Source of the DNA: Methylobacterium sp.
Lineage (GTDB): Bacteria > Pseudomonadota > Alphaproteobacteria > Rhizobiales > Beijerinckiaceae
NCBI GenBank assembly: GCA_020253445.1
Contig: JADCBP010000001.1
Span: 124,001-188,000 of the forward strand
Direction of reading: 5' to 3'
DNA length: 64,000 bases
A program made the translations under genes and the position numbers. The notes below the pieces were generated by a model. The model had not been told where the DNA came from. It did no database searches and saw only the letters and a program-made list of their open reading frames with translations. This document shows positions 5,611 to 15,716 of this stretch, in pieces; the stretch's first letter is position 1; each line of letters begins with the position of its first letter.

Positions 5611-7050
5611 GTGCTGAACGAGGTCTTCACAGCAGATATCGAGGTTCGGCTGCGCTCGGGAGAAGCCTCGTATCTGTTGCGCCTCTACCGGAAGGAGCGT
5701 GCCCAGAGCGAGCAGGCCACCATCGCCATGCTCACCAGCGAAGTGATGAAGGCCTATGGTTCGCATCTGGTGGTGCTCGAGCAAAATGGCGAAGGCGATT
5801 ATGCCTTTCTCTATGCCGGGGCTCGCGTGCCCGACCATGATGGCCAGGCCATTACCGGGAAATCGACCTCCGCCATCGCGCCCGAAACGGCCGAACTCTA
5901 TCTCATGGGCTGTGAGGAGGCCCGCGAACAGAACGATGCAGTCTGCATCAACCACATCACCAAACCGAAATGTCTGGTGCATCACTGGGAATGCCTGTTC
6001 CTTCCGATGGAGGACAGCGCGCATCGCCGCATGTTCGTGGCCTTGTGCATGCCGCGGGAGAACAAGGACGACTTTCTTCGCAACATGCTCGACAACACGC
6101 CCGAAGCGATGATCGCAGCGACCCCGGTGCGCGACCTGCATGGCGAAGTGACGGATGCGGTCGTGCTCTATGCGAACAAGACAGCGGCCCGGCTTTCCGG
6201 CCATGTGGACACCAACAAGTTGGTCGGCACCTCGATGATGGGCCTGTTCGGCGATGTCGCGACCGCCGGAGCCTGGGCCCGAAACCTCACGGTCCTGCGT
6301 TCGGGCAAGGCGGCGCAATTCGAGTTCCACCATCGCTCGCAGACCGATTCCCGCTGGCTGCGCGTCTCCTCGATGCCGACCAAGGACGGCCTGCTCGCCT
6401 CCTTCCACGACATCACGACCCAGAAGCGCGCCCAGCTTGAGCTCGAACATCAGAAGAAGATGCTGATGGACGAGATGGAACAGCGCCGCGGGCTGGAGCA
6501 GGAGCTTTGGGCGCTTGCCCATCTCGATCCGCTGACCTCCCTGCCAAACCGTCGCGCATTCCGCGAATCGGCCCTTGTGAAGCTGGCCGAAAGCCAGACC
6601 GCGCATCGCCCGCTGGCGTTGATCTCGCTCGACATCGACCATTTCAAGCACATCAACGACGCCTATGGTCACGGCGCGGGCGACACCGTCCTGCGTCGCG
6701 TGGCCGATGTACTGAAGGCGCCCCTGCGCCCCAACACGGACATGGCGGCGCGCGTGGGCGGCGAGGAATTTGCCGTGATCCTGCCGGATACGGATATCGA
6801 CTCCGCCATCGCCTTCGCCGAGAAGCTGCGCCGGCGCATCGAGCAGACCGTCGTGGTGGTGGGCGAACACGAAATCCGCCCCACGATCTCGCTCGGCATC
6901 GCGATGAACCGCAGGAGCACCAATCTCGACGAACTGATGGACCGCTCCGACCGCGCGCTCTACACGGCCAAGCGCTCGGGCCGGAACAAGGTCTGCACCG
7001 AAGTCGATGTGCAGGCGAAGCCCGGCGACGGCACTACGGCAGCCGCCTAA
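5611..7050 (+). CDS. PAS-GGEEF diguanylate cyclase
   Basis: Probable c-di-GMP synthase of 479 residues. The N-terminal 150 residues have several Cys/His (CINHITKPKCLVHHWECLF) and no assigned fold. A PAS-like domain covers about 155-270, ending FHDITTQKRAQLELEHQKK, then a coiled-coil linker 272-300 and a GGDEF domain 300-465 with DPLTSLPNRRAF, DIDHFKHINDAYGH and the active site RVGGEEF at 383-387. The canonical RxxD inhibitory site before the active loop reads PNTD, so product feedback at that site is probably lost. The start is GTG at 5611: an in-frame TGA at 5599-5601 excludes longer forms, and the ribosome site is weak. The stop codon overlaps a 16-bp inverted repeat. Divergent from the TRAP operon. 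Confidence 0.88.
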   Translation: MLNEVFTADIEVRLRSGEASYLLRLYRKERAQSEQATIAMLTSEVMKAYGSHLVVLEQNGEGDYAFLYAGARVPDHDGQAITGKSTSAIAPETAELYLMGCEEAREQNDAVCINHITKPKCLVHHWECLFLPMEDSAHRRMFVALCMPRENKDDFLRNMLDNTPEAMIAATPVRDLHGEVTDAVVLYANKTAARLSGHVDTNKLVGTSMMGLFGDVATAGAWARNLTVLRSGKAAQFEFHHRSQTDSRWLRVSSMPTKDGLLASFHDITTQKRAQLELEHQKKMLMDEMEQRRGLEQELWALAHLDPLTSLPNRRAFRESALVKLAESQTAHRPLALISLDIDHFKHINDAYGHGAGDTVLRRVADVLKAPLRPNTDMAARVGGEEFAVILPDTDIDSAIAFAEKLRRRIEQTVVVVGEHEIRPTISLGIAMNRRSTNLDELMDRSDRALYTAKRSGRNKVCTEVDVQAKPGDGTTAAA

Positions 7051-7109
7051 AGCATTTTCCGATCTGATCGAACAAGAGCGCCGGAATTTGCCTGATCGGA
7101 AAATGCTTT
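7049..7109. repeat. Palindromic element with 16-bp perfect inverted repeat
   Basis: AAAGCATTTTCCGATC (7049-7064) is exactly reverse-complementary to GATCGGAAAATGCTTT (7094-7109), separated by 29 bp. The first arm begins within the TAA stop of the diguanylate cyclase gene. The arms share GCATTTTC/GAAAATGC with the two elements that follow. It could act as a 3' stem-loop for the cyclase mRNA, though no T run follows beyond TTTA. Confidence 0.7.
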
Positions 7110-7125
7110 ATCTCTTTCTTATATC

Positions 7126-7191
7126 GCATTTTCTTCACGCGAACCGGTATCCACCCCCGCCTCCGCAGGGGCATGCTTCGCTTGAAAATGC
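7126..7191. repeat. Palindromic element copy 1 (with 22-bp internal insertion)
   Basis: The element runs from GCATTTTC to GAAAATGC with the core TTCACGCGAACCGGTATCCAC. It is identical to copy 2 (7210-7253) except for a 22-bp insertion at 7155-7176 that itself contains a CCCC...GGGG hairpin. It lies between the cyclase gene and the end of miaA. Confidence 0.75.
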
Positions 7192-7199
7192 TTCTCTCT

Positions 7200-8150
7200 T
7201 TACTTTATCGCATTTTCTTCACGCGAACCGGTATCCACTTCGCTTGAAAATGCTCTGGGTGCCTCTTCGGCGCTCTCCGCCCATTGCCAATGTTTGCCGG
7301 CGAGATACCGCCGCGCGAAAATCACCTGCCGGCGCGCATAGGCGCGGGTATCCCGCTGCGAAAGACGAACCGCTTCGGCGCGGTCCATCTCGCCCCGCAA
7401 AAGGCGCGCGAGATGCGGCACGCCATGAGCCTTCATCACCCCGAGATTGGCCGGCAGGGGGGGCTGATGCGCCAGAAGCCCCCTCACCTCTTCCGGCGCG
7501 CCCTCGTCCATCATCGCCTCGAAACGGGCATCGATCCGGGCATGCAGCAATGCGCGGGGCGGGTTGAGAAAAATCCCCCGCCATTCACCCGGCCGGAGCA
7601 GTGGCTCGCCGGGATTGTCGCGGAGCCATTCGGTGTAGGTGCGGCCGGTGGCGCAAAAGAGTTCGATGGCCCGCAGGATGCGCGGCGCATCCTGAGGGTG
7701 CAAGGCTGCTGCGCGCTGCGGGTCGCAGGCTCGGAGCGCCGCATGCAGATCCTCCCCCGCCGCCGCGCGCTGCCGCCATTCCGCCCGCACCGCAGCATGG
7801 ATCGGCGGCGATGGCATAAGGCCCTCTGTCAGCGCCCGGAAATAGAGCCCCGTTCCACCCGCGATCACGATGGCACGGCCCTTTGCCCGCGCCTCGGCGA
7901 TGAGGGGAGCCGAATCCGCGAGATAGCGCCCCACGGAATATTCCTCCCCGGCAGGCACGAAACCGAAGAGCGCGTGCGGCACGCGTGCCACTTCCGCCAA
8001 GGTCGGCCGGGCCGAGAGCACCCGAAGATCGGCATAGACCTGCATGGAATCCGCGTTGATCACGGTGGCGCCGCCGCGTTCGGCCACCGCGATCGCCAGG
8101 GCCGACTTGCCGCTGGCGGTCGGACCTGCAATCAGGGTGGCGAATGCCAT
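7200..8150 (-). CDS. miaA: tRNA dimethylallyltransferase
   Basis: Transfers a dimethylallyl group to N6 of adenosine 37 in tRNAs reading UNN codons. The 316-residue protein starts MAFATLIAGPTASGKSALA, with the P-loop GPTASGKS at residues 9-16, and continues with INADSMQVYADLRVLSARP, IVIAGGTGLYFRALTEGL and the C-terminal RDTRAYARRQVIFARRY. It diverges from serB with 36 bp between starts. An upstream in-frame extension would run antisense through serB and is rejected. The last 17 residues (AFSSEVDTGSREENAIK) derive largely from palindromic element copy 2, so the native C-terminus has been replaced or extended. The enzyme core appears intact. Confidence 0.94.
   Translation of the reverse strand: MAFATLIAGPTASGKSALAIAVAERGGATVINADSMQVYADLRVLSARPTLAEVARVPHALFGFVPAGEEYSVGRYLADSAPLIAEARAKGRAIVIAGGTGLYFRALTEGLMPSPPIHAAVRAEWRQRAAAGEDLHAALRACDPQRAAALHPQDAPRILRAIELFCATGRTYTEWLRDNPGEPLLRPGEWRGIFLNPPRALLHARIDARFEAMMDEGAPEEVRGLLAHQPPLPANLGVMKAHGVPHLARLLRGEMDRAEAVRLSQRDTRAYARRQVIFARRYLAGKHWQWAESAEEAPRAFSSEVDTGSREENAIK
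7210..7253. repeat. Palindromic element copy 2, encoding the MiaA C-terminus
   Basis: A 44-bp element with 8-bp outer arms GCATTTTC/GAAAATGC and an inner imperfect hairpin (GCGAAGTGG ATA CCGGTTCGC on the minus strand). It lies inside the miaA reading frame and encodes the tail AFSSEVDTGSREENA. The miaA TAA at 7200-7202 lies 7 bp outside the element. The same core is present in frame inside thyA. Confidence 0.8.
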
Positions 8151-8186
8151 CGCGAATTCCTTCCTTGCCGGAACTGGATCTAGCCC

Positions 8187-9098
8187 ATGAATGCCTCCGC
8201 CGCCAATGCCGATCCGTCTCATGTCGCGACCGTCGTGGTGCCGGAAGGCAGCGGGCTTCTCGAGCTGCCGCGCCTCGCGCGGCTGCGCGAGGCCTTGCCG
8301 CAAGCGGAAGTGAGCGTTCTCTCTCCCGGCCGGGCTGTCGATTTCTACCTGCCGCCCGGGCTCACGGCGGCACGGGAGGCCATCCTTTCGGCCATGCCTG
8401 GCGCGCCGGTGGATGTCATCGTCCAGCCAGTGGCCGCGCGGCGCAAGAAACTGTTCCTCGCCGACATGGACTCCACGATGATCGGGCAGGAATGCATCGA
8501 CGAACTCGCCGATGCCGTCGGCCTGAAGGCCCATGTCTCGGCCATCACCGAGCGCGCCATGCGCGGGGAGATTGCCTTCGAGCCGGCCTTGCGCGAACGC
8601 GTCGCGCTGCTGAAGGGCCTGACGGCGGACGTGGTGGAAAGGATGATCGGAGAGCGGATCACCTTCACGCCCGGTGGCAAGGCGCTGGTGCGCACCATGC
8701 GCAGGGCCGGCGCCTATACGGCACTGGTTTCCGGCGGCTTCACCGTCTTCACCGGGCCGATCAGCGCCATGATCGGCTTCGACATGCATCGCTCGAACAC
8801 GCTGATCATCGAGAACGACCAGTTTGCCGGCCTTGTCGCCGATCCCATCCTCGGTCGCGAAGCCAAGCGCGAGACGTTGATCGAACTGCGTGATGCACGT
8901 GGAATCTCGGCCAGCGAAACGCTGGCCGTCGGCGATGGCGCGAATGATCTCGCGATGCTCGGCGAAGCCGGGCTTGGTGTCGCCTTCCGTGCCAAGCCCA
9001 TCGTGGCGGAAGCCGCCCATGCCCGCATCGACCACACGGATCTGCGCACCCTGCTCTACGCGCAAGGTTATCGAGACGAGGATATCGTCGAGGGCTGA
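8187..9098 (+). CDS. serB: Phosphoserine phosphatase
   Basis: Last step of serine synthesis: hydrolyses O-phospho-L-serine to serine. The protein of 303 residues has an N-terminal regulatory-type segment (about 1-85) and a HAD phosphatase domain with DMDSTMIGQECIDELAD (nucleophile Asp93, acid/base Asp95), the Ser/Thr motif ALVSGGFTVF, a Lys in LGREAKRETL, and VGDGANDLAMLGEAGLGVAFRAKP. It is divergent from miaA, and this pairing is common in Hyphomicrobiales. A hairpin terminator shared with convergent degP follows. Confidence 0.95.
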   Translation: MNASAANADPSHVATVVVPEGSGLLELPRLARLREALPQAEVSVLSPGRAVDFYLPPGLTAAREAILSAMPGAPVDVIVQPVAARRKKLFLADMDSTMIGQECIDELADAVGLKAHVSAITERAMRGEIAFEPALRERVALLKGLTADVVERMIGERITFTPGGKALVRTMRRAGAYTALVSGGFTVFTGPISAMIGFDMHRSNTLIIENDQFAGLVADPILGREAKRETLIELRDARGISASETLAVGDGANDLAMLGEAGLGVAFRAKPIVAEAAHARIDHTDLRTLLYAQGYRDEDIVEG

Positions 9099-9120
9099 CA
9101 CAACAAGCCTGGCGCATGAA

Positions 9121-9146
9121 AAAGGCGGGGTTTCGGCCCCGCCTTT
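9121..9146. terminator. Bidirectional terminator between serB and degP
   Basis: AAAGGCGGGG and CCCCGCCTTT form a perfect 10-bp stem with loop TTTCGG. Read on the minus strand the hairpin ends in TTTTTC, a good terminator for degP. On the plus strand it ends TTTCG, serving serB less strongly. It lies between the two convergent stop codons. Confidence 0.85.
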
Positions 9147-9170
9147 CGCATTCGTGGTGTCCGTCGTCGC

Positions 9171-10682
9171 TTATTCGAGCGGCAGCGTCACATAGCGCAG
9201 GGTGCCTTCCGGGCCGGAAGCCACATAGAACAGCGCGCGCTTCTGGCCCTGGCTCTTCAGAGTCTCGATGCGCTTGCGGATATCCGCCAGCGACTTCACC
9301 GGCTCGCGCTGCACTTCCACGATCACGTCACCCGCGGAGATGCGACGCTCGGCAGCCGTCGAGTTCGGATCGACCTGGCCCACCAGCACACCCTCGATGC
9401 CATCCTTCACGTTGAAGCGGCGACGCGCCTCCGGCGAGAGCGCGCCGAGATTGAGGCCCGGCACGATGTTGGCACCGCTCGAGGGATTCGCGTTGCGCGG
9501 ATCGTTCTGCTGGAACGAGGCCTGCTGCGGCGATTCATCGAGGCGGCCCAGCGTCACCCTGCGCACGACCTCACGGCCCTGGCGCACCACCACAACATCG
9601 ACTTCCTTGCCGATCGGGGTGAGGGCCACGATGCGCGGCAGGTCGCGGCTGCTCTTGATGTCCTGGCCATCGAAGCGCACGATGACATCCTCGCGTTCGA
9701 TGCCGGCCGGCTTGGCCGGCCCCTTTTCGTCGACGCCTGTCACCATGGCGCCGCGCTTGGCGCCGAGCTTCAGGGCTTCGGCGGTCTCGTCATCCACGTC
9801 CTGGATGGCGACGCCGAGCCAGGCGCGGCGGGTCTCGCCGAATTCGCGCAACTGCTGGATCACCGGCATGGCGAGGTTCGAGGGGACAGAGAAGCCAATG
9901 CCGATCGAGCCACCCGACGGCGAGATGATCGCCGTGTTGATGCCGATCACGTCACCGGCCATGTTGAAAAGCGGACCGCCCGAATTGCCCTTGTTGATGG
10001 CCGCATCGGTCTGGATGAAGCTGTCATAGGGGCCAGAGCGGATGTTGCGCTGCTTGGCCGAGACGATGCCCGCCGACACCGAGCCGCCGAAGCCGAACGG
10101 ATTGCCGATCGCCATCACCCAGTCGCCGACGCGTGCCTTGTCGCTGTCGCCAAACTTCACCGCCTTCAGCGGCTTGTCGGATTTCACGCGCAGAACCGCG
10201 ATATCGGTCTTCGGGTCCTTGCCGAGCACCTCGGCCTTGAGCTCCGAACCATCATTGAACACCACGAACACGTCCGTGGCTTCGGCAATGACGTGGTTGT
10301 TGGTGACCACGATGCCGGAGGAATCGATCACGAAACCCGAGCCCAGCGATTGCGAGCGCTGGTTGGGCTGCGGGCCCTGCTGCGGCGCGCGCGGACCCTG
10401 ACGGTTGAAGAAGTCGTTGAAGAGATCCTCAAAGGGCGAACCCGGCGGCACCTGGGGCGCCGGCACATTGCGCTGCGCCACACGCTGGGAGGCCTTGATG
10501 TTGACGACCGAATCCATCACGCGCTCCGCGAGATCCGCGAAACCGTCCGGCGCGCGCGAATTCTGCGCCGCCGCCGGCAAAACCACCGACACGGCCAAAA
10601 TCACAACCGCGAGAAGCCGCGTCACGCCGGCTCCTGCGCCTTGTGACTGGCCTCCGAACTTAACCCGAAGGGCTTGAGACAT
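9171..10682 (-). CDS. degP: Periplasmic serine protease/chaperone DegP (Do family)
   Basis: ATP-independent protease and chaperone of envelope proteins. The 503-residue product has an N-terminal signal segment (TRLLAVVILAVSVVLPAAAQ), a trypsin-like domain with His130 (TNNHVI), Asp160 (DPKTDIAVLRV) and Ser234 (KGNSGGP), and two PDZ domains (about 295-390 and 405-495). A Gln/Pro-rich loop at 95-112 corresponds to the LA loop. Start at 10682 is chosen because GAGG lies 6 nt upstream; an upstream in-frame ATG at MRNEMSQ is possible. It belongs to a minus-strand cluster with hflK, hflC and a DUF2065 gene, suggesting shared membrane/periplasm quality control. Confidence 0.94.
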   Translation of the reverse strand: MSQALRVKFGGQSQGAGAGVTRLLAVVILAVSVVLPAAAQNSRAPDGFADLAERVMDSVVNIKASQRVAQRNVPAPQVPPGSPFEDLFNDFFNRQGPRAPQQGPQPNQRSQSLGSGFVIDSSGIVVTNNHVIAEATDVFVVFNDGSELKAEVLGKDPKTDIAVLRVKSDKPLKAVKFGDSDKARVGDWVMAIGNPFGFGGSVSAGIVSAKQRNIRSGPYDSFIQTDAAINKGNSGGPLFNMAGDVIGINTAIISPSGGSIGIGFSVPSNLAMPVIQQLREFGETRRAWLGVAIQDVDDETAEALKLGAKRGAMVTGVDEKGPAKPAGIEREDVIVRFDGQDIKSSRDLPRIVALTPIGKEVDVVVVRQGREVVRRVTLGRLDESPQQASFQQNDPRNANPSSGANIVPGLNLGALSPEARRRFNVKDGIEGVLVGQVDPNSTAAERRISAGDVIVEVQREPVKSLADIRKRIETLKSQGQKRALFYVASGPEGTLRYVTLPLE

Positions 10683-10787
10683 TTCGTTCCTCATTCCTGT
10701 TCCGCTGGTCGCCGCCCGCGACACCTGCATGTTAGAAGGGGAGCAATTGCGGCGAATTGGCGACGTGACCACCCCCCGAAAGCCCAT

Positions 10788-10994
10788 TCACAACAGGTTG
10801 ATCGCGGGAAACCCGCGGATCGCCCAGACCAGTGCAATTCCAATCACCGCCGAGGCGATACCGACGAGTCTGAGAACGCCTTCCGGCGTCTCCGCGGCAT
10901 CCCGCATCGCCCGGCGCATGGCACCCGGAAAGGCCGCGAAAGCGAGCCCTTCCAGCGCAAGCATCAGGGCCAGCGCGATCAGCAGGTCGCGCAT
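10788..10994 (-). CDS. DUF2065 small membrane protein
   Basis: A 68-residue protein starting MRDLLIALALMLALEGLAFA with two hydrophobic helices (about 3-22 and 45-62) joined by a short basic loop (PGAMRRAMRDAAETPEG). This is the DUF2065 (YjeT-like) pattern, and the gene sits in its usual position between hflC and degP. GAGAGGG precedes the ATG. The function is unknown; conserved linkage suggests a link to HflKC or DegP. A longer in-frame start upstream would overlap the spacer and lacks support. Confidence 0.82.
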   Translation of the reverse strand: MRDLLIALALMLALEGLAFAAFPGAMRRAMRDAAETPEGVLRLVGIASAVIGIALVWAIRGFPAINLL

Positions 10995-11111
10995 CAACCC
11001 TCTCCCGCAGCGGAAAGCTCCGCTCCCATGGCCCCGGCCATCATCCGCTCCCCATCGGATGAATGGCGTAACCCGGAGCGCCACGCTCGGCGCTCCGGGC
11101 CGCTCATTCGT

Positions 11112-11990
11112 TTATTGTGCTCCCCGCGGCTTGCCCGACGGACTGTTCAGATACTGGAAGAAATCGTTGTCCGGCGAGATGACAAGGCGCGTATCCCCGT
11201 TCTTGAGGCTCGTTTCATAGGCCTGAAGCGAGCGATAAAACGAGAAAAACTCAATGTTGCGCTGATGGGCCTCGGCGAGAAGCCGCGTGCGCTCCGCTTC
11301 TCCCCGGCCGAGCGCCTCGCGGGCGATCCGGTCCGCTTCGGCGCGCGTGACGGTGACGGTCCGATCCGCCTGCGCCTTGATGCGATCGGAGATTTCGACG
11401 CCCTGCGCGCGCAGTTCGGCCGCCTCGCGCTGGCGCTCGGTCTGCATGCGCCGGAACACCGCCTGGCTGTTCTGGTCCGGCAGGTCCGCCCGGCGGATTC
11501 GGATATCGACGATGGAAACGCCGAGGCCCGTCGCCTCGCTGTTCACCTGGTCGCGGATCTTCGCCATCAGGCCACCGCGATCATCCCTCACGACCTGCGA
11601 GAACGTCGATTCGCCCAGAACGCGCCGCAGGGCGGCGTCCATGAAGGTGCCCAGCTGCTGGTTGCCGCGGACCGTAGAGCCCGCCGTCGCCTGGAAGAAG
11701 CGCAACGGGTTCTCGATGCGGTAGCGGGCGAAGGCATCCACCACGAGACGCTTCTGATCGGAGGTAATCGCTTCGATGGAAGCCGATTCCAGATCGAGGA
11801 TGCGCCGTTCGAGGCTGATGACCTGCTGGATGAAAGGGATCTTGAAGTTCAGGCCCGATTGCGTGATGACACGCACCGGCTGGCCGAACTGGGTGACGAT
11901 CGCCTGTTCGGTCTGGTCGACCGAGAACATGGAGGCGCCGCCGACAATCACGGCCGCCACGGCGGCCAATCCGAGTGCAGAGCGCATCAT
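11112..11990 (-). CDS. hflC: HflC, membrane-protease regulator
   Basis: SPFH/band-7 protein that forms the periplasmic HflKC cage around FtsH and modulates its proteolysis of membrane proteins. The 292-residue product has an N-terminal anchor (ALGLAAVAAVIVGGASMF) and the band-7 domain with VDQTEQAIVTQFGQPVRV, GLNFKIPFIQQV, LGVSIVDIRIRRADLP and a long charged helix about 190-255. Its start codon overlaps the hflK stop by one base. The C-terminal end (DNDFFQYLNSPSGKPRGAQ) is typical of alphaproteobacterial HflC. Confidence 0.93.
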   Translation of the reverse strand: MMRSALGLAAVAAVIVGGASMFSVDQTEQAIVTQFGQPVRVITQSGLNFKIPFIQQVISLERRILDLESASIEAITSDQKRLVVDAFARYRIENPLRFFQATAGSTVRGNQQLGTFMDAALRRVLGESTFSQVVRDDRGGLMAKIRDQVNSEATGLGVSIVDIRIRRADLPDQNSQAVFRRMQTERQREAAELRAQGVEISDRIKAQADRTVTVTRAEADRIAREALGRGEAERTRLLAEAHQRNIEFFSFYRSLQAYETSLKNGDTRLVISPDNDFFQYLNSPSGKPRGAQ

Positions 11991-13159
11991 CAGCGTTTCC
12001 CCTGGTCCTGGATGCGCGAACGCATGAGATCATTGAGTGGCAAAAGCGGAACCACGCCGCCCTGCTGTCGCTGGCCCGTATCCACGATCACCTTCTCCAT
12101 GCCGCCAAAGACGCGCTCGATGGTTTCAAGATAGAGACGCTGGCGGGTCACATCCGGTGCTTTCTGGTATTCGTCGAGAATGGCGTTGAAGCGCGTGGCT
12201 TCGCCGCGGGCATCCGCGATCATGCGCTCGCGCTCCGCTTCCGCCCGCTGGGTGATGCGGGAGGCTTCACCGCGCGCCTCGGGGATCACACGATTCGCGT
12301 AGGTCTGCGCCTCGTTCTGCGCGCGCTCCTGGTCGGCGCGCGCGGCCTGGACGTCGCGGAAGGCGTCGATCACCTCATTCGGCGGGTCGACCTTCAGCAT
12401 CTGCACCTGCTGGATGACAATGCCGGCACCATAGGAATTGAGGGTGCGCTGCATCAGTTCCTGCACCTGCCGCTCGATTTCGAGACGGGCGCCGGTCAGG
12501 ATCGGCTGGATATCGCGCCGGCCGATCACGTCGCGCATGGCGCTTTCCGCGACCGCCTTCACGGTCCCTTCCGGGTTGCGGAGATTGAAGATGAAGTCTT
12601 GCGGTCGCCGTGCATCCACGAGCCAGAGCACGGTGAAATCCACATCCACGATGTTCTCGTCGCCTGTCAGCATCAGGCTTTCCTCGCGGACATCGCGTGA
12701 GCCACGCCCGCCCTGCCCAGTGCGAAGCCCGATCTCGACCGTCTGCACGCCGATGGTGGGCCGGTCGATGCGGCCGACGGGATAGGGCCAGTTCCAGTTC
12801 AGGCCCGGCGCGGTGAGCGAGGTGAACTGGCCAAACACGCGCTCGATGCCAACCTCGTTCGGCCGCACGGTGTAGAAACCGGTCAACCCCCAGCCAATGA
12901 TGCCGAGAACCGCAAGAATGGCGATACCGAGCCCGCCGAGCCTGCCGAAACCACCCTCGCCGCCCCCGCCGCCGGGAATGACCCGGCGCAGCTTGTCCTG
13001 ACTGCGGCGCAGGATCTCTTCCAGATCCGGCGGCTCACGTCCGCCGCCGCCCCCGCCGCCTCCGCCGGATGGGCCGCCTCCCCATGGATTGGGGTTGCGA
13101 GGCCCCTGTCCCTTGGGCTGCCAGGGGCCGCCGCCGCCGTTATTGCTGTTCCAGGGCAT
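11990..13159 (-). CDS. hflK: HflK, membrane-protease regulator
   Basis: Partner of HflC in the FtsH-regulating complex. The 389-residue product starts MPWNSNNGGGGPWQPKGQGP, a Gly/Pro/Asn-rich cytoplasmic tail containing nine consecutive Gly (residues about 32-42), then DLEEILRRSQDKLRRVIPGG, one TM helix (LGIAILAVLGIIGWGLTGFY) and a band-7 domain (FYTVRPNEVGIERVFGQF, DVDFTVLWLVDARRPQDFIF). The start at 13159 has AAGGA at 8 nt; a longer in-frame start has no better ribosome site. It is 71 bp downstream of folA in the thyA-folA-hflK-hflC run. Confidence 0.93.
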   Translation of the reverse strand: MPWNSNNGGGGPWQPKGQGPRNPNPWGGGPSGGGGGGGGGREPPDLEEILRRSQDKLRRVIPGGGGGEGGFGRLGGLGIAILAVLGIIGWGLTGFYTVRPNEVGIERVFGQFTSLTAPGLNWNWPYPVGRIDRPTIGVQTVEIGLRTGQGGRGSRDVREESLMLTGDENIVDVDFTVLWLVDARRPQDFIFNLRNPEGTVKAVAESAMRDVIGRRDIQPILTGARLEIERQVQELMQRTLNSYGAGIVIQQVQMLKVDPPNEVIDAFRDVQAARADQERAQNEAQTYANRVIPEARGEASRITQRAEAERERMIADARGEATRFNAILDEYQKAPDVTRQRLYLETIERVFGGMEKVIVDTGQRQQGGVVPLLPLNDLMRSRIQDQGKR

Positions 13160-13230
13160 GAACTGTCCTTCGTCTCGTCCGAACTCGTCAAAAAACTTCC
13201 GCTCTGATGTGGGTCCTGATCGGCAGAAGG

Positions 13231-13740
13231 TCAACGCCGAACATAGGTTCGAAAGCGAAAGTCCGCTTCGTCATCCTTCGATTTGGTGAAGGATTGCTCC
13301 TTCGCAACCCTCCAGAGGGCGGAATCAATGGGCGGAAAGGTCGCATCCCCGGCGGGTTCAAGCGCCACGTCGGTGATCTCGAGCCGGTCGGCGACATCGA
13401 GGAACAGGCGATAGATCTCTCCGCCGCCGGCCACGAAAACCGTCTTCACGCCCAGCTTTTCGGCTTCCTCGGCGGCCATCGCGAGCGCCTCGCTCCGGGA
13501 ATGCGCCACGCGAACCTCCGGAACCTGCCAGGCCGCATCCCGCGTGATCACGATCATCACCCGACCGGGCAAGGGCTTGCCGATGGAATCGAAAGTCTTC
13601 CGGCCCAGAATGAGCGGATGCCCCATGGTCAACGCGCGGAAGCGCTGGAGGTCGCTCTTCAGCCGCCAGATCAACCGGTTATCGTCGCCGATCACGCGAT
13701 TTTTCGCCTGCGCGGCGACAAGAACGAGTTCCGGCGCCAT
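13231..13740 (-). CDS. folA: Dihydrofolate reductase
   Basis: Reduces dihydrofolate to tetrahydrofolate with NADPH, regenerating the cofactor consumed by thymidylate synthase encoded just upstream. The 169-residue product shows VLVAAQAKNRVIGDDNRLIW, LTMGHPLILGRKTFDSIGKPLPGR and VAGGGEIYRLFLDVADRLEIT, with the substrate-binding acidic residue of DNRLIWRLKSD. Its ATG overlaps the thyA stop by one base (TGATG), so the pair is probably co-translated. Length is normal. Confidence 0.95.
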   Translation of the reverse strand: MAPELVLVAAQAKNRVIGDDNRLIWRLKSDLQRFRALTMGHPLILGRKTFDSIGKPLPGRVMIVITRDAAWQVPEVRVAHSRSEALAMAAEEAEKLGVKTVFVAGGGEIYRLFLDVADRLEITDVALEPAGDATFPPIDSALWRVAKEQSFTKSKDDEADFRFRTYVRR

Positions 13741-14618
13741 CAGACCGCCACCGGCGCCTTGATGGCGGGGTGAGGGTCGTAGCCTTCGATGGCGATATCC
13801 TCGAAACGGAAATCGAAGAGGTTTTTCACCTGCGGGTTGAGCTTGAGACGCGGCAGGGCGCGATGCTCGCGGGAGAGCTGCAGCCGCGCCTGCTCCAGAT
13901 GGTTCGAATAGAGATGCACATCGCCGAAGGTATGCACGAAATCCCCTACATCGAGATCGCAGACCTGCGCGATCATATGCGTCAGCAGCGCGTAGGAGGC
14001 GATGTTGAAGGGCACACCCAGTAACAGATCCGCCGAACGCTGGTAAAGCTGGCAGGAAAGCCGCGGTTTCACAGCGCCGTTTTCTTGGCTGGTCGCAAGA
14101 TCCTCACGCGAACCGGCGGCCACTTCGCTTGATCTGGCTCCCCTCGGCTGGGCGACATAAAACTGAAACAGGCAATGGCAGGGTGCCAAGGCCATTTTCG
14201 GGAGATCCGCCGGGTTCCAGGCCGAGACGATCAGCCGGCGGGAATCCGGTGTGCGCTTCAGATCAGCCAGCAGGCCCGCCATCTGATCGATGGTTGTGCC
14301 GTTGGGGGCCGGCCAGCTCCGCCACTGGCGACCATAGACCGGCCCGAGATCGCCATTCTCGTCCGCCCATTCATCCCAGATGGAAACACCTTTATCTTTC
14401 AGATACTTGATGTTCGTTTCACCGGAGAGGAACCAGATCAGTTCGTGGATGATCGATTTCAGATGCAGCTTCTTGGTCGTCACCAGCGGGAAGCCGGCCT
14501 GGAGATCAAAACGCATCTGCGCGCCGAAGAGCGAAAGCGTGCCGGTGCCGGTGCGGTCGGTTTTCTCGACGCCCTCATCGAGCACGCGCTGCATCAGATC
14601 GTGATAGGCCCGCATCAT
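13740..14618 (-). CDS. thyA: Thymidylate synthase with in-frame palindromic-element insertion
   Basis: Converts dUMP and methylene-THF to dTMP and dihydrofolate. The 292-residue product has all the landmarks: [36 protein letters not shown], and the nucleophile Cys147 in [13 protein letters not shown]. Between FYVA (ending residue 156) and [11 protein letters not shown] (from 184) there are 27 extra residues containing [11 protein letters not shown]. In typical family members only a short turn such as DGK is found here, linking two beta strands. The inserted DNA contains the core of the palindromic element. No frameshift or stop is present, so the enzyme is likely functional. Two ATGs overlap at the start (14618/14615). 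It is coupled to folA. Confidence 0.94.
14070..14150. repeat. Palindromic element inserted in frame in thyA
   Basis: An 81-bp (27-codon) segment interrupts thyA. Its central 30 bp (14103-14132) match the element core of miaA almost base for base: TCAAGCGAAGTG, then GCCGCC instead of GATACC, then GGTTCGCGTGA. The outer arms here are AGATC/GATCT, whereas in the miaA copy they are GCATTTTC/GAAAATGC; both pairs are self-complementary. It is read in the same phase as in miaA ([10 protein letters not shown] versus SSEVdtGSRE). Confidence 0.85.
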
Positions 14619-14671
14619 CCTCTCCTTCCGGCCCTGACCCTTGCTTCAAATCCAATGACCGCAAAAGAAAC

Positions 14672-14693
14672 AAGGAGGGACGATGCCCTCCTT
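14672..14693 (-). terminator. Terminator after the DUF2853 gene
   Basis: AAGGAGGG (14672-14679) and CCCTCCTT (14686-14693) form a perfect 8-bp stem with a 6-nt loop. On the minus strand it is followed by TTGTTTCTTTTG. It separates the DUF2853 gene from thyA. Confidence 0.65.
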
Positions 14694-14742
14694 GAAAGCC
14701 ATCCACCCCGCATGAGCGCCCGCGATCAATCGTCGCAGGGCC

Positions 14743-15215: not shown

Positions 15216-15244
15216 TTCAATTCTGGACCGGTCATCCCTATAAT
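15216..15244 (+). promoter_or_regulatory. ssrA promoter
   Basis: A perfect -10 box TATAAT (15239-15244) with a plausible -35 TTCAAT (15216-15221) at 17-bp spacing. The predicted start near 15251 is just upstream of the tmRNA acceptor piece. Confidence 0.65.
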
Positions 15245-15250
15245 GAAGTG

Positions 15251-15570
15251 GCCGTCCTTCGGGTCGGCTATGGCGATACACGGCGATCGTAATAAACCCA
15301 TCGGACCCGGGGGCAGTACCCGGCGCCTCCACCCAAATCCTTTTTCAACAAGGATTTCGGCGGGGGCGAAACAGGATCGACGAGGGCGTAAAGGGTTGGT
15401 CGTCGCCCGGCATGATACCGCCGTCATCGGGTCAACTTAATAGTTGCCAACGACAACTATGCTCCGGTTGCTCAGGCCGCGTAACGCGGTTTGAAAGACC
15501 GAACCAAAGCCCTTCAGGTTAGCCCCTGAAGGCGGGGCCGGCAGGGGCCTGGCAACAGAACCCTGCCACT
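15251..15570 (+). ncRNA. ssrA: tmRNA, circularly permuted two-piece type
   Basis: Rescues stalled ribosomes and tags nascent proteins. The gene is permuted: the acceptor piece comes first. Its T arm is a perfect 5-bp stem and 7-nt loop at 15307-15323, followed by the 3' acceptor strand CGCCTCC (15324-15330) and ACC. A perfect 8-bp hairpin (15335-15342/15350-15357) joins it to the coding piece, which starts GGGGGCGAAACAGGATCGAC at 15362. GGGGGCG pairs with CGCCTCC over 7 bp with one G-U. The tag frame 15446-15484 encodes ANDNYAPVAQAA then TAA. Pseudoknot-like stems follow to about 15570. Outer ends are approximate. sspB lies downstream. Confidence 0.93.
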
Positions 15571-15716
15571 TCCCCTTTCCCGATTTAATCCTGCCCGGTT
15601 CATTCTGCGGGTTTCTTCATGCTTTCGAATCGCGCCATAGGTGACAGGCGCGGCCTGATCGCATTATGCTGGCCGAGCCGGTGTTTCCTTTCCCAGCCTT
15701 TTGCGAAGTCTGAACG

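Follow-up and report, generated by a model that had tools for sequence, protein, structure and literature searches.

A palindromic repeat lies in frame inside thymidylate synthase and other enzymes of Methylobacterium

Palindromic repeats that sit in frame within genes have been described in Rickettsia, in Wolbachia, and among several MITEs (PMC10969869, PMC2229807, PMC6649704). As these reports present them, the Rickettsia palindromic elements (RPEs) are dispersed, lie in frame in conserved genes and encode a recurrent peptide, with only some families found in genes; their length is given as 105 to 146 bp (PMC2229807). REPs have also been reported inside genes of free-living species, including the tRNA synthetases of alphaproteobacteria (Di Nocera 2013, PMC3733652). 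The CGTC REPs of that paper are mostly alphaproteobacterial, are listed there with no known transposase, and have stems of 8 to 9 bp, loops of 4 to 5 bp, AT as the first stem pairs, and a CCA tail. An earlier note on the DNA analyzed here had held that in-frame palindromic elements in essential enzymes are well known in Rickettsia but are not a described feature of this lineage. The second half stands for the open-licence literature, which contained no report of the repeat element or of such insertions in this lineage, and short sequence strings of the repeat turned up only in papers that, judged by their titles, concern unrelated subjects. The first half needs widening, since the intragenic REPs in PMC3733652 show that Rickettsia is not the only host.

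We analyzed a 64,000-nucleotide stretch of Methylobacterium sp. DNA (the window), in which the repeat lies inside thyA and at miaA (Table 1). In a Pfam scan PF00303 spans the whole length of ThyA (412.8 bits), and the gene shares one base with folA, in agreement with its earlier description as otherwise intact and normally overlapping. Between FYVA and LSCQLYQRS the window ThyA has 30 residues, compared with 3 in E. coli ThyA. Counted after FYV, the turn measures 31 residues here and 4 in 76 of 80 named relatives from outside the genus, all at most 70% identical; the remaining four have 10 to 14. Homologues do have a short turn at this position, as had been proposed, and a general insertion of the same length in Hyphomicrobiales ThyA is ruled out by these counts. 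The insert represents a single copy of a 44-nt palindrome and its A-rich tail; the core opens with the GCC codon of Ala161, a codon also present in the empty alleles. The thyA reading frame was preserved through the insertion, and so was the fold of thymidylate synthase. A structure model, with low confidence in the insert itself, suggests that the insert lies on a surface turn. A permuted tmRNA gene with the tag ANDNYAPVAQAA was found by ARAGORN at positions 15242-15575 of the window.

Table 1. Positions of the thyA and miaA features within the window
Feature	Position	Strand	Basis or remark
thyA (thymidylate synthase, 292 aa), holding the in-frame insert	13740..14618	-	open frame; PF00303
Insert in thyA	14070..14135	-	codons 162-183; one codon in the clade's empty alleles; sister-genome alignment
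44-nt palindromic core	14095..14138	-	arms GCCAGATC / GATCTTGC
folA, downstream of thyA	13231..13740	-	name from the earlier note and reading of the protein
Second copy, coding for AFSSEVDTGSREENAIK and the closing TAA stop of miaA, in the frame used in ThyA	7200..7253	-	repeat match at 7210-7253; TIGR00174 miaA on the same frame
Third, longer copy immediately downstream of miaA, containing an additional GC-rich segment	7125..7191	-	

The earlier note had proposed dating the insertion by aligning ThyA from related genomes. Among 17 genomes of the genus, the long insert occurs in two, that of the window (G000) and G010. A 10-residue turn, for example AQPRGATKPQ, is found in G011, G003, G006, G009, and G007, and in eleven genus genomes the turns are shorter or similar and free of the repeat. 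Aligned with sister-genome DNA, thyA shows a net gain of 63 nt (21 residues), flanked by CAGCCGAGGGGAGCC and a AAACCGCGG-like sequence. The 27 extra residues that had been counted hold against E. coli, but by the alignment only 21 of them come from the repeat; the other 6 are older, because the nearest empty alleles already have the 10-residue turn. In the ThyA tree G009 joins G010 (0.987) though the G009 allele is empty, which may reflect either loss or the replacement of an inserted allele by an empty one. The edges of the insert, GGAGCC and GGCGCT, form only a weak direct repeat, and the sister-genome alignment revealed no exact target-site duplication at this site, where the arms are complementary to each other.

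A DNA search of the window's own genome with the thyA insert gave 52 matches at E ≤ 10, including 30 at E ≤ 0.00155, so copies of the core do exist beyond the window. Common to the copies is a 44-nt core, GCATTTTCAAGCGAAGTGGnnnCCGGTTCGCGTGAAGAAAATGC, with a tail rich in A. The size of this family and the empty sites in relatives rule out chance similarity and bear out the earlier description of the thyA insert as an in-frame palindromic core. The core is predicted to form a stable hairpin (-18.9 kcal/mol), with an 8-bp outer stem around 28 nt that contain an inner hairpin. We assessed covariation in all 119 distinct cores from the retrieved genus loci, many of them chosen for long open frames. 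Pairing was found in 94.3% of cells, compared with 85.4% (SD, 0.4) after shuffling, and two-sided changes numbered 134, compared with 31.1 (SD, 4.5) after shuffling and at most 72 with slid partner columns; none of 500 shuffles equalled either the pairing or the two-sided changes. All eight outer pairs are intact in 80 cores, seven in 23, and six or fewer in 16, and 16 to 17 types of perfect arms were seen. The stem arms covary. Kinship without structure is able to exceed such shuffles, but the slid controls, together with the variety of compensated arms, make it an unlikely account. Tandem arrays with a period of ~62 nt were seen at four loci, some of them at contig ends. Rfam gave no match at gathering score for positions 6900-14700 of the window. 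Of the two copies that the earlier note had placed beside miaA, both are present, but one proved to be the coding end of miaA itself: in G000 the final 17 codons of this gene and its stop come from the repeat, and miaA of G009 ends likewise.

Peptide-profile matches, with intergenic copies counted, occurred in all 17 genus genomes (2 to 113 each at E ≤ 5, among the matches listed). At E ≤ 1e-5 the profile matched 34 of 297 genomes and 12 of 122 genera of the order, three of the 34 genomes belonging to this genus. The 48-nt consensus matched 54 plasmid records (Sinorhizobium, Bradyrhizobium, Methylobacterium, Xanthobacter, Bosea, and others); a plasmid search with the repeat peptide gave no match. 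Outside the genus, 20 long-frame matches were retrieved and 10 of these were scanned with Pfam. One of the 10 falls within a LysR gene, flanked by two matched domain stretches; two are terminal in an alpha/beta hydrolase, three stand before a domain, and four are in frames without a family. The repeat family is dispersed in the genus and thinner in the order Hyphomicrobiales, and frequent in-gene insertion was seen for this genus only. Mobilization by a RAYT/IS200 transposase was set aside, as a search for PF01797 (Y1/RAYT transposase) was negative in all 17 genus genomes and positive in 5 of 14 control genomes. We conclude that the insert is very probably (about 0.85) a non-autonomous, REP/MITE-like palindromic repeat of ~57 to 63 bp that is dispersed in the genus.

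Locus reading and family scans placed the repeat in frame inside recognized genes at at least 19 sites in the genus. The earlier note had suggested counting copies inside coding sequences, and the window's own genome has five such genes: those for ThyA, a short-chain dehydrogenase-type protein (SDR), Pgi, an FAD monooxygenase, and an RsmB-type methyltransferase, the last placed by ortholog alignment, as its insert precedes the Pfam matches. Sister genomes have the repeat inside SerS, CysS, GlyS, HemH, a TPP enzyme, GlcE (assigned at a score of 272.2, under the curated cut-off of 284), TopA, ValS (two sites), diaminopropionate ammonia-lyase, ArgC, prolyl oligopeptidase, and GcvPB, and between the two domains of a LUD/ferredoxin protein. 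Near the C terminus it occurs in UvrB (G016 and G006) and in MdoH and a metal ABC permease (both G004). Besides ThyA, we surveyed Pgi, with inserts in 3 of 17 genomes (G000, G009, and G010), the RsmB-type gene in 2 of 16 (G000 and G011), SerS in 3 of 16 (G004, G009, and G010), and HemH in 2 of 16 (G004 and G007); for all five genes the remaining genomes have clean empty sites. Net gains at the measured sites are 57, 60, or 63 nt. An insert with so stable a hairpin might be bypassed or removed, in the RNA or during translation, like the yeast mitochondrial palindromes described in PMC6649704; that the gains are multiples of three and the frame free of stops, neither of which skipping would require, makes this scarcely credible. 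The valS gene of G009 has two copies of the repeat, and G010 is empty at the second site. At three SerS and two ValS loci we also saw other long stretches, unrelated to the repeat, that differ strongly between close species, and SerS of G000 has a different short extra stretch, ARRIFDRRSAAGDDGARFRRS, beside the empty site of the repeat.

We next consider the reading frame. All 14 in-gene sites found by frame-blind DNA searches read SSEV..GSRE. In the own-genome test, 45 of the 52 DNA matches (all but the seven weakest) were examined in six frames for ORFs of at least 110 residues with 25 residues on each side of the copy; 42 were found, and the 40 distinct ones were scanned with Pfam. Nine have a Pfam family, and in five of these the copy is inside the gene, reading SSEV..GSRE each time. 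In the other four (Mur ligase type, IspA, FAA hydrolase, and MAPEG) the copy stands before the domain in a different frame. Since start codons stand between copy and domain, these four copies probably lie upstream of the start and are untranslated; otherwise they would be exceptions to the frame. A search of the 17 genomes with a SerS copy gave 33 two-armed matches among the matches listed, with only those covering both arms classed and ORFs in other frames left out of the Pfam scan. Twenty-two lie in recognized genes (12 sites), all in one frame, two at the C terminus of UvrB, two at a possible N terminus (QueG and Nudix), and seven elsewhere, outside recognized genes. The consensus is open in four of six frames; were frames equally likely and sites independent, a single frame would have odds of 1/256 at five sites and ~1.5 per 100 million at fourteen. 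The simplest reading is that a hydrophilic, sense-orientation peptide is selected for after insertion.

The arms of the copies fall into two classes. Most copies outside genes have the arms GCATTTTC/GAAAATGC or GCGTTTTC/GAAAACGC. Altered arms, GCGAAATC/GATTTCGC, GCAAAATC/GATTTTGC, and similar ones, read AKSS..EDFA in place of AFSS..EENA, are changed on both sides and occur mainly in genes. In the window's own genome, three of four copies with altered arms are in genes, compared with 2 of 41 others (Fisher P = 0.0027, for classes set post hoc); the FAD monooxygenase, ValS, ArgC, and GcvPB are exceptions with common arms, and the seven two-armed matches outside recognized genes are exceptions on the other side. 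We tentatively consider, at somewhat less than even odds, that a sub-family has adapted to proteins, with arms rewritten on both sides, one hydrophilic frame, repeated entry into core enzymes at preferred sites, and stems that are renewed by arm-to-arm copying and change less than the surrounding synonymous sites. If so, it would be selfish DNA whose coding capacity is selected to be harmless.

Several sites carry the repeat in species that are distant from each other: SerS in G004 and in G009/G010, HemH in G004 and G007, SDR in G000 and G006, UvrB in G016 and G006, and GlyS in G008 and G001. In a four-gene tree the carriers of the SerS, HemH, SDR, GlyS, and UvrB inserts are not nearest relatives, and such sharing is not predicted by simple random transposition. 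The shared inserts may stem from independent insertion at a preferred site, from allelic recombination, or from an old insertion followed by many losses, and arm-to-arm copying may keep their stems alike. In eight orthologous insert pairs the third codon positions differ at 10 of 112, with flank divergence of 0.185 to 0.481. Together with the single frame at all 14 frame-blind sites, this conservation could mean that the peptide is useful and that positive or purifying selection maintains the inserts, for instance as an interaction or stability tag on core enzymes. We consider that highly unlikely: a scarcity of third-position change points to the DNA rather than the peptide, each insertion is missing from most species of the genus, and the cores of ThyA (3/41 versus 0.097), Pgi (5/41 versus 0.116), and the RsmB-type gene (4/41 versus 0.137) diverge about as much as their flanks.

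Alternatively, inserted alleles may spread from species to species chiefly through homologous recombination of gene segments, with few original insertions. The RsmB-type insert is present in G000 and G011 yet not in G009/G010, against the trees; SerS inserts are found in G009/G010 and the distant G004; the ThyA insert is in G000 and G010 and not in G009, despite the grouping of the latter two; and G004 and G009 have SerS cores that show no difference outside a 3-nt loop (0/41), with flanks that differ by 0.297. However, the loops differ among SerS alleles, flank exchange is only presumed, and recombination accounts for the sharing rather than for first entry into 19 sites, so that as the main route it is possible with the odds against it. 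An old, vertical origin with many losses and decaying remnants would fit the nearest empty ThyA alleles, whose turns are already 6 residues longer, and the GlyS inserts of G008 and G001, which have the variants AGCGAGG and GGCTCGCG in common, as some non-gene copies do too. This origin is nevertheless unlikely, as the cores of SerS, CysS, HemH, and ValS are near-identical in diverged flanks and the empty sites in the five surveyed genes are precise rather than ragged. Recombination together with stem renewal is the likely background of the shared inserts.

For the REP/MITE-like repeat that we favor, a course of events can be outlined. The repeat would spread as a hairpin, through template switching or with the help of some enzyme. 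Insertions disrupting genes or adding other peptides would be lost, and those in surface turns with the hydrophilic frame SSEVxxGSRE(D/E)xA would survive as nearly neutral; part of the family, with altered arms mainly in genes, seems suited to life inside proteins. In this free-living genus, core enzymes have repeatedly gained ~20 residues from repeat DNA. Orthologues with and without the insert coexist naturally, making palindrome entry and its effects on proteins testable without engineering, and selection on the peptide can be told apart from selection on a DNA hairpin by the one-frame rule and the covarying arms.

Compared with the described systems, the repeat resembles RPEs in entering protein genes in frame with a recurrent reading frame. 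It is set apart from them by size and host, adding 57 to 63 nt (~20 residues) in Hyphomicrobiales. Like the GTAG and CGTC REPs of PMC3733652, it is a small palindrome found in genes that include tRNA synthetases and UvrB. Unlike the CGTC REP geometry given there, its 8-bp outer stem starts with GC and encloses 28 nt with a second hairpin, and its single fixed frame has no counterpart in what PMC3733652 says of REPs. Upstream of the core, GTAG was absent from all 46 chosen copies, most of them outside genes, and from all 21 in-gene copies; CGTC was absent from those 46 and present in 1 of the 21. In many in-gene copies the core is directly followed by GC-GTC, a string similar to CGTC. The RAYT association of GTAG-type REPs also differs from the absence of PF01797 in this genus. 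Br-REP1 and Br-REP2 of Bradyrhizobium (PMC5082802) are likewise alphaproteobacterial palindromic repeats, described there outside genes, and their printed consensus, compared by eye, is unlike the repeat. The RIME of rhizobia, compared by citation only (PMC2245857), are palindromic repeats from the same order, and 42 Sinorhizobium plasmid records match the 48-nt consensus of the repeat (over 30 nt at 93.3%, among the matches listed). As far as these sources describe the known systems, the repeat is akin to RPEs and intragenic REPs in how it works, yet is neither by size or geometry.
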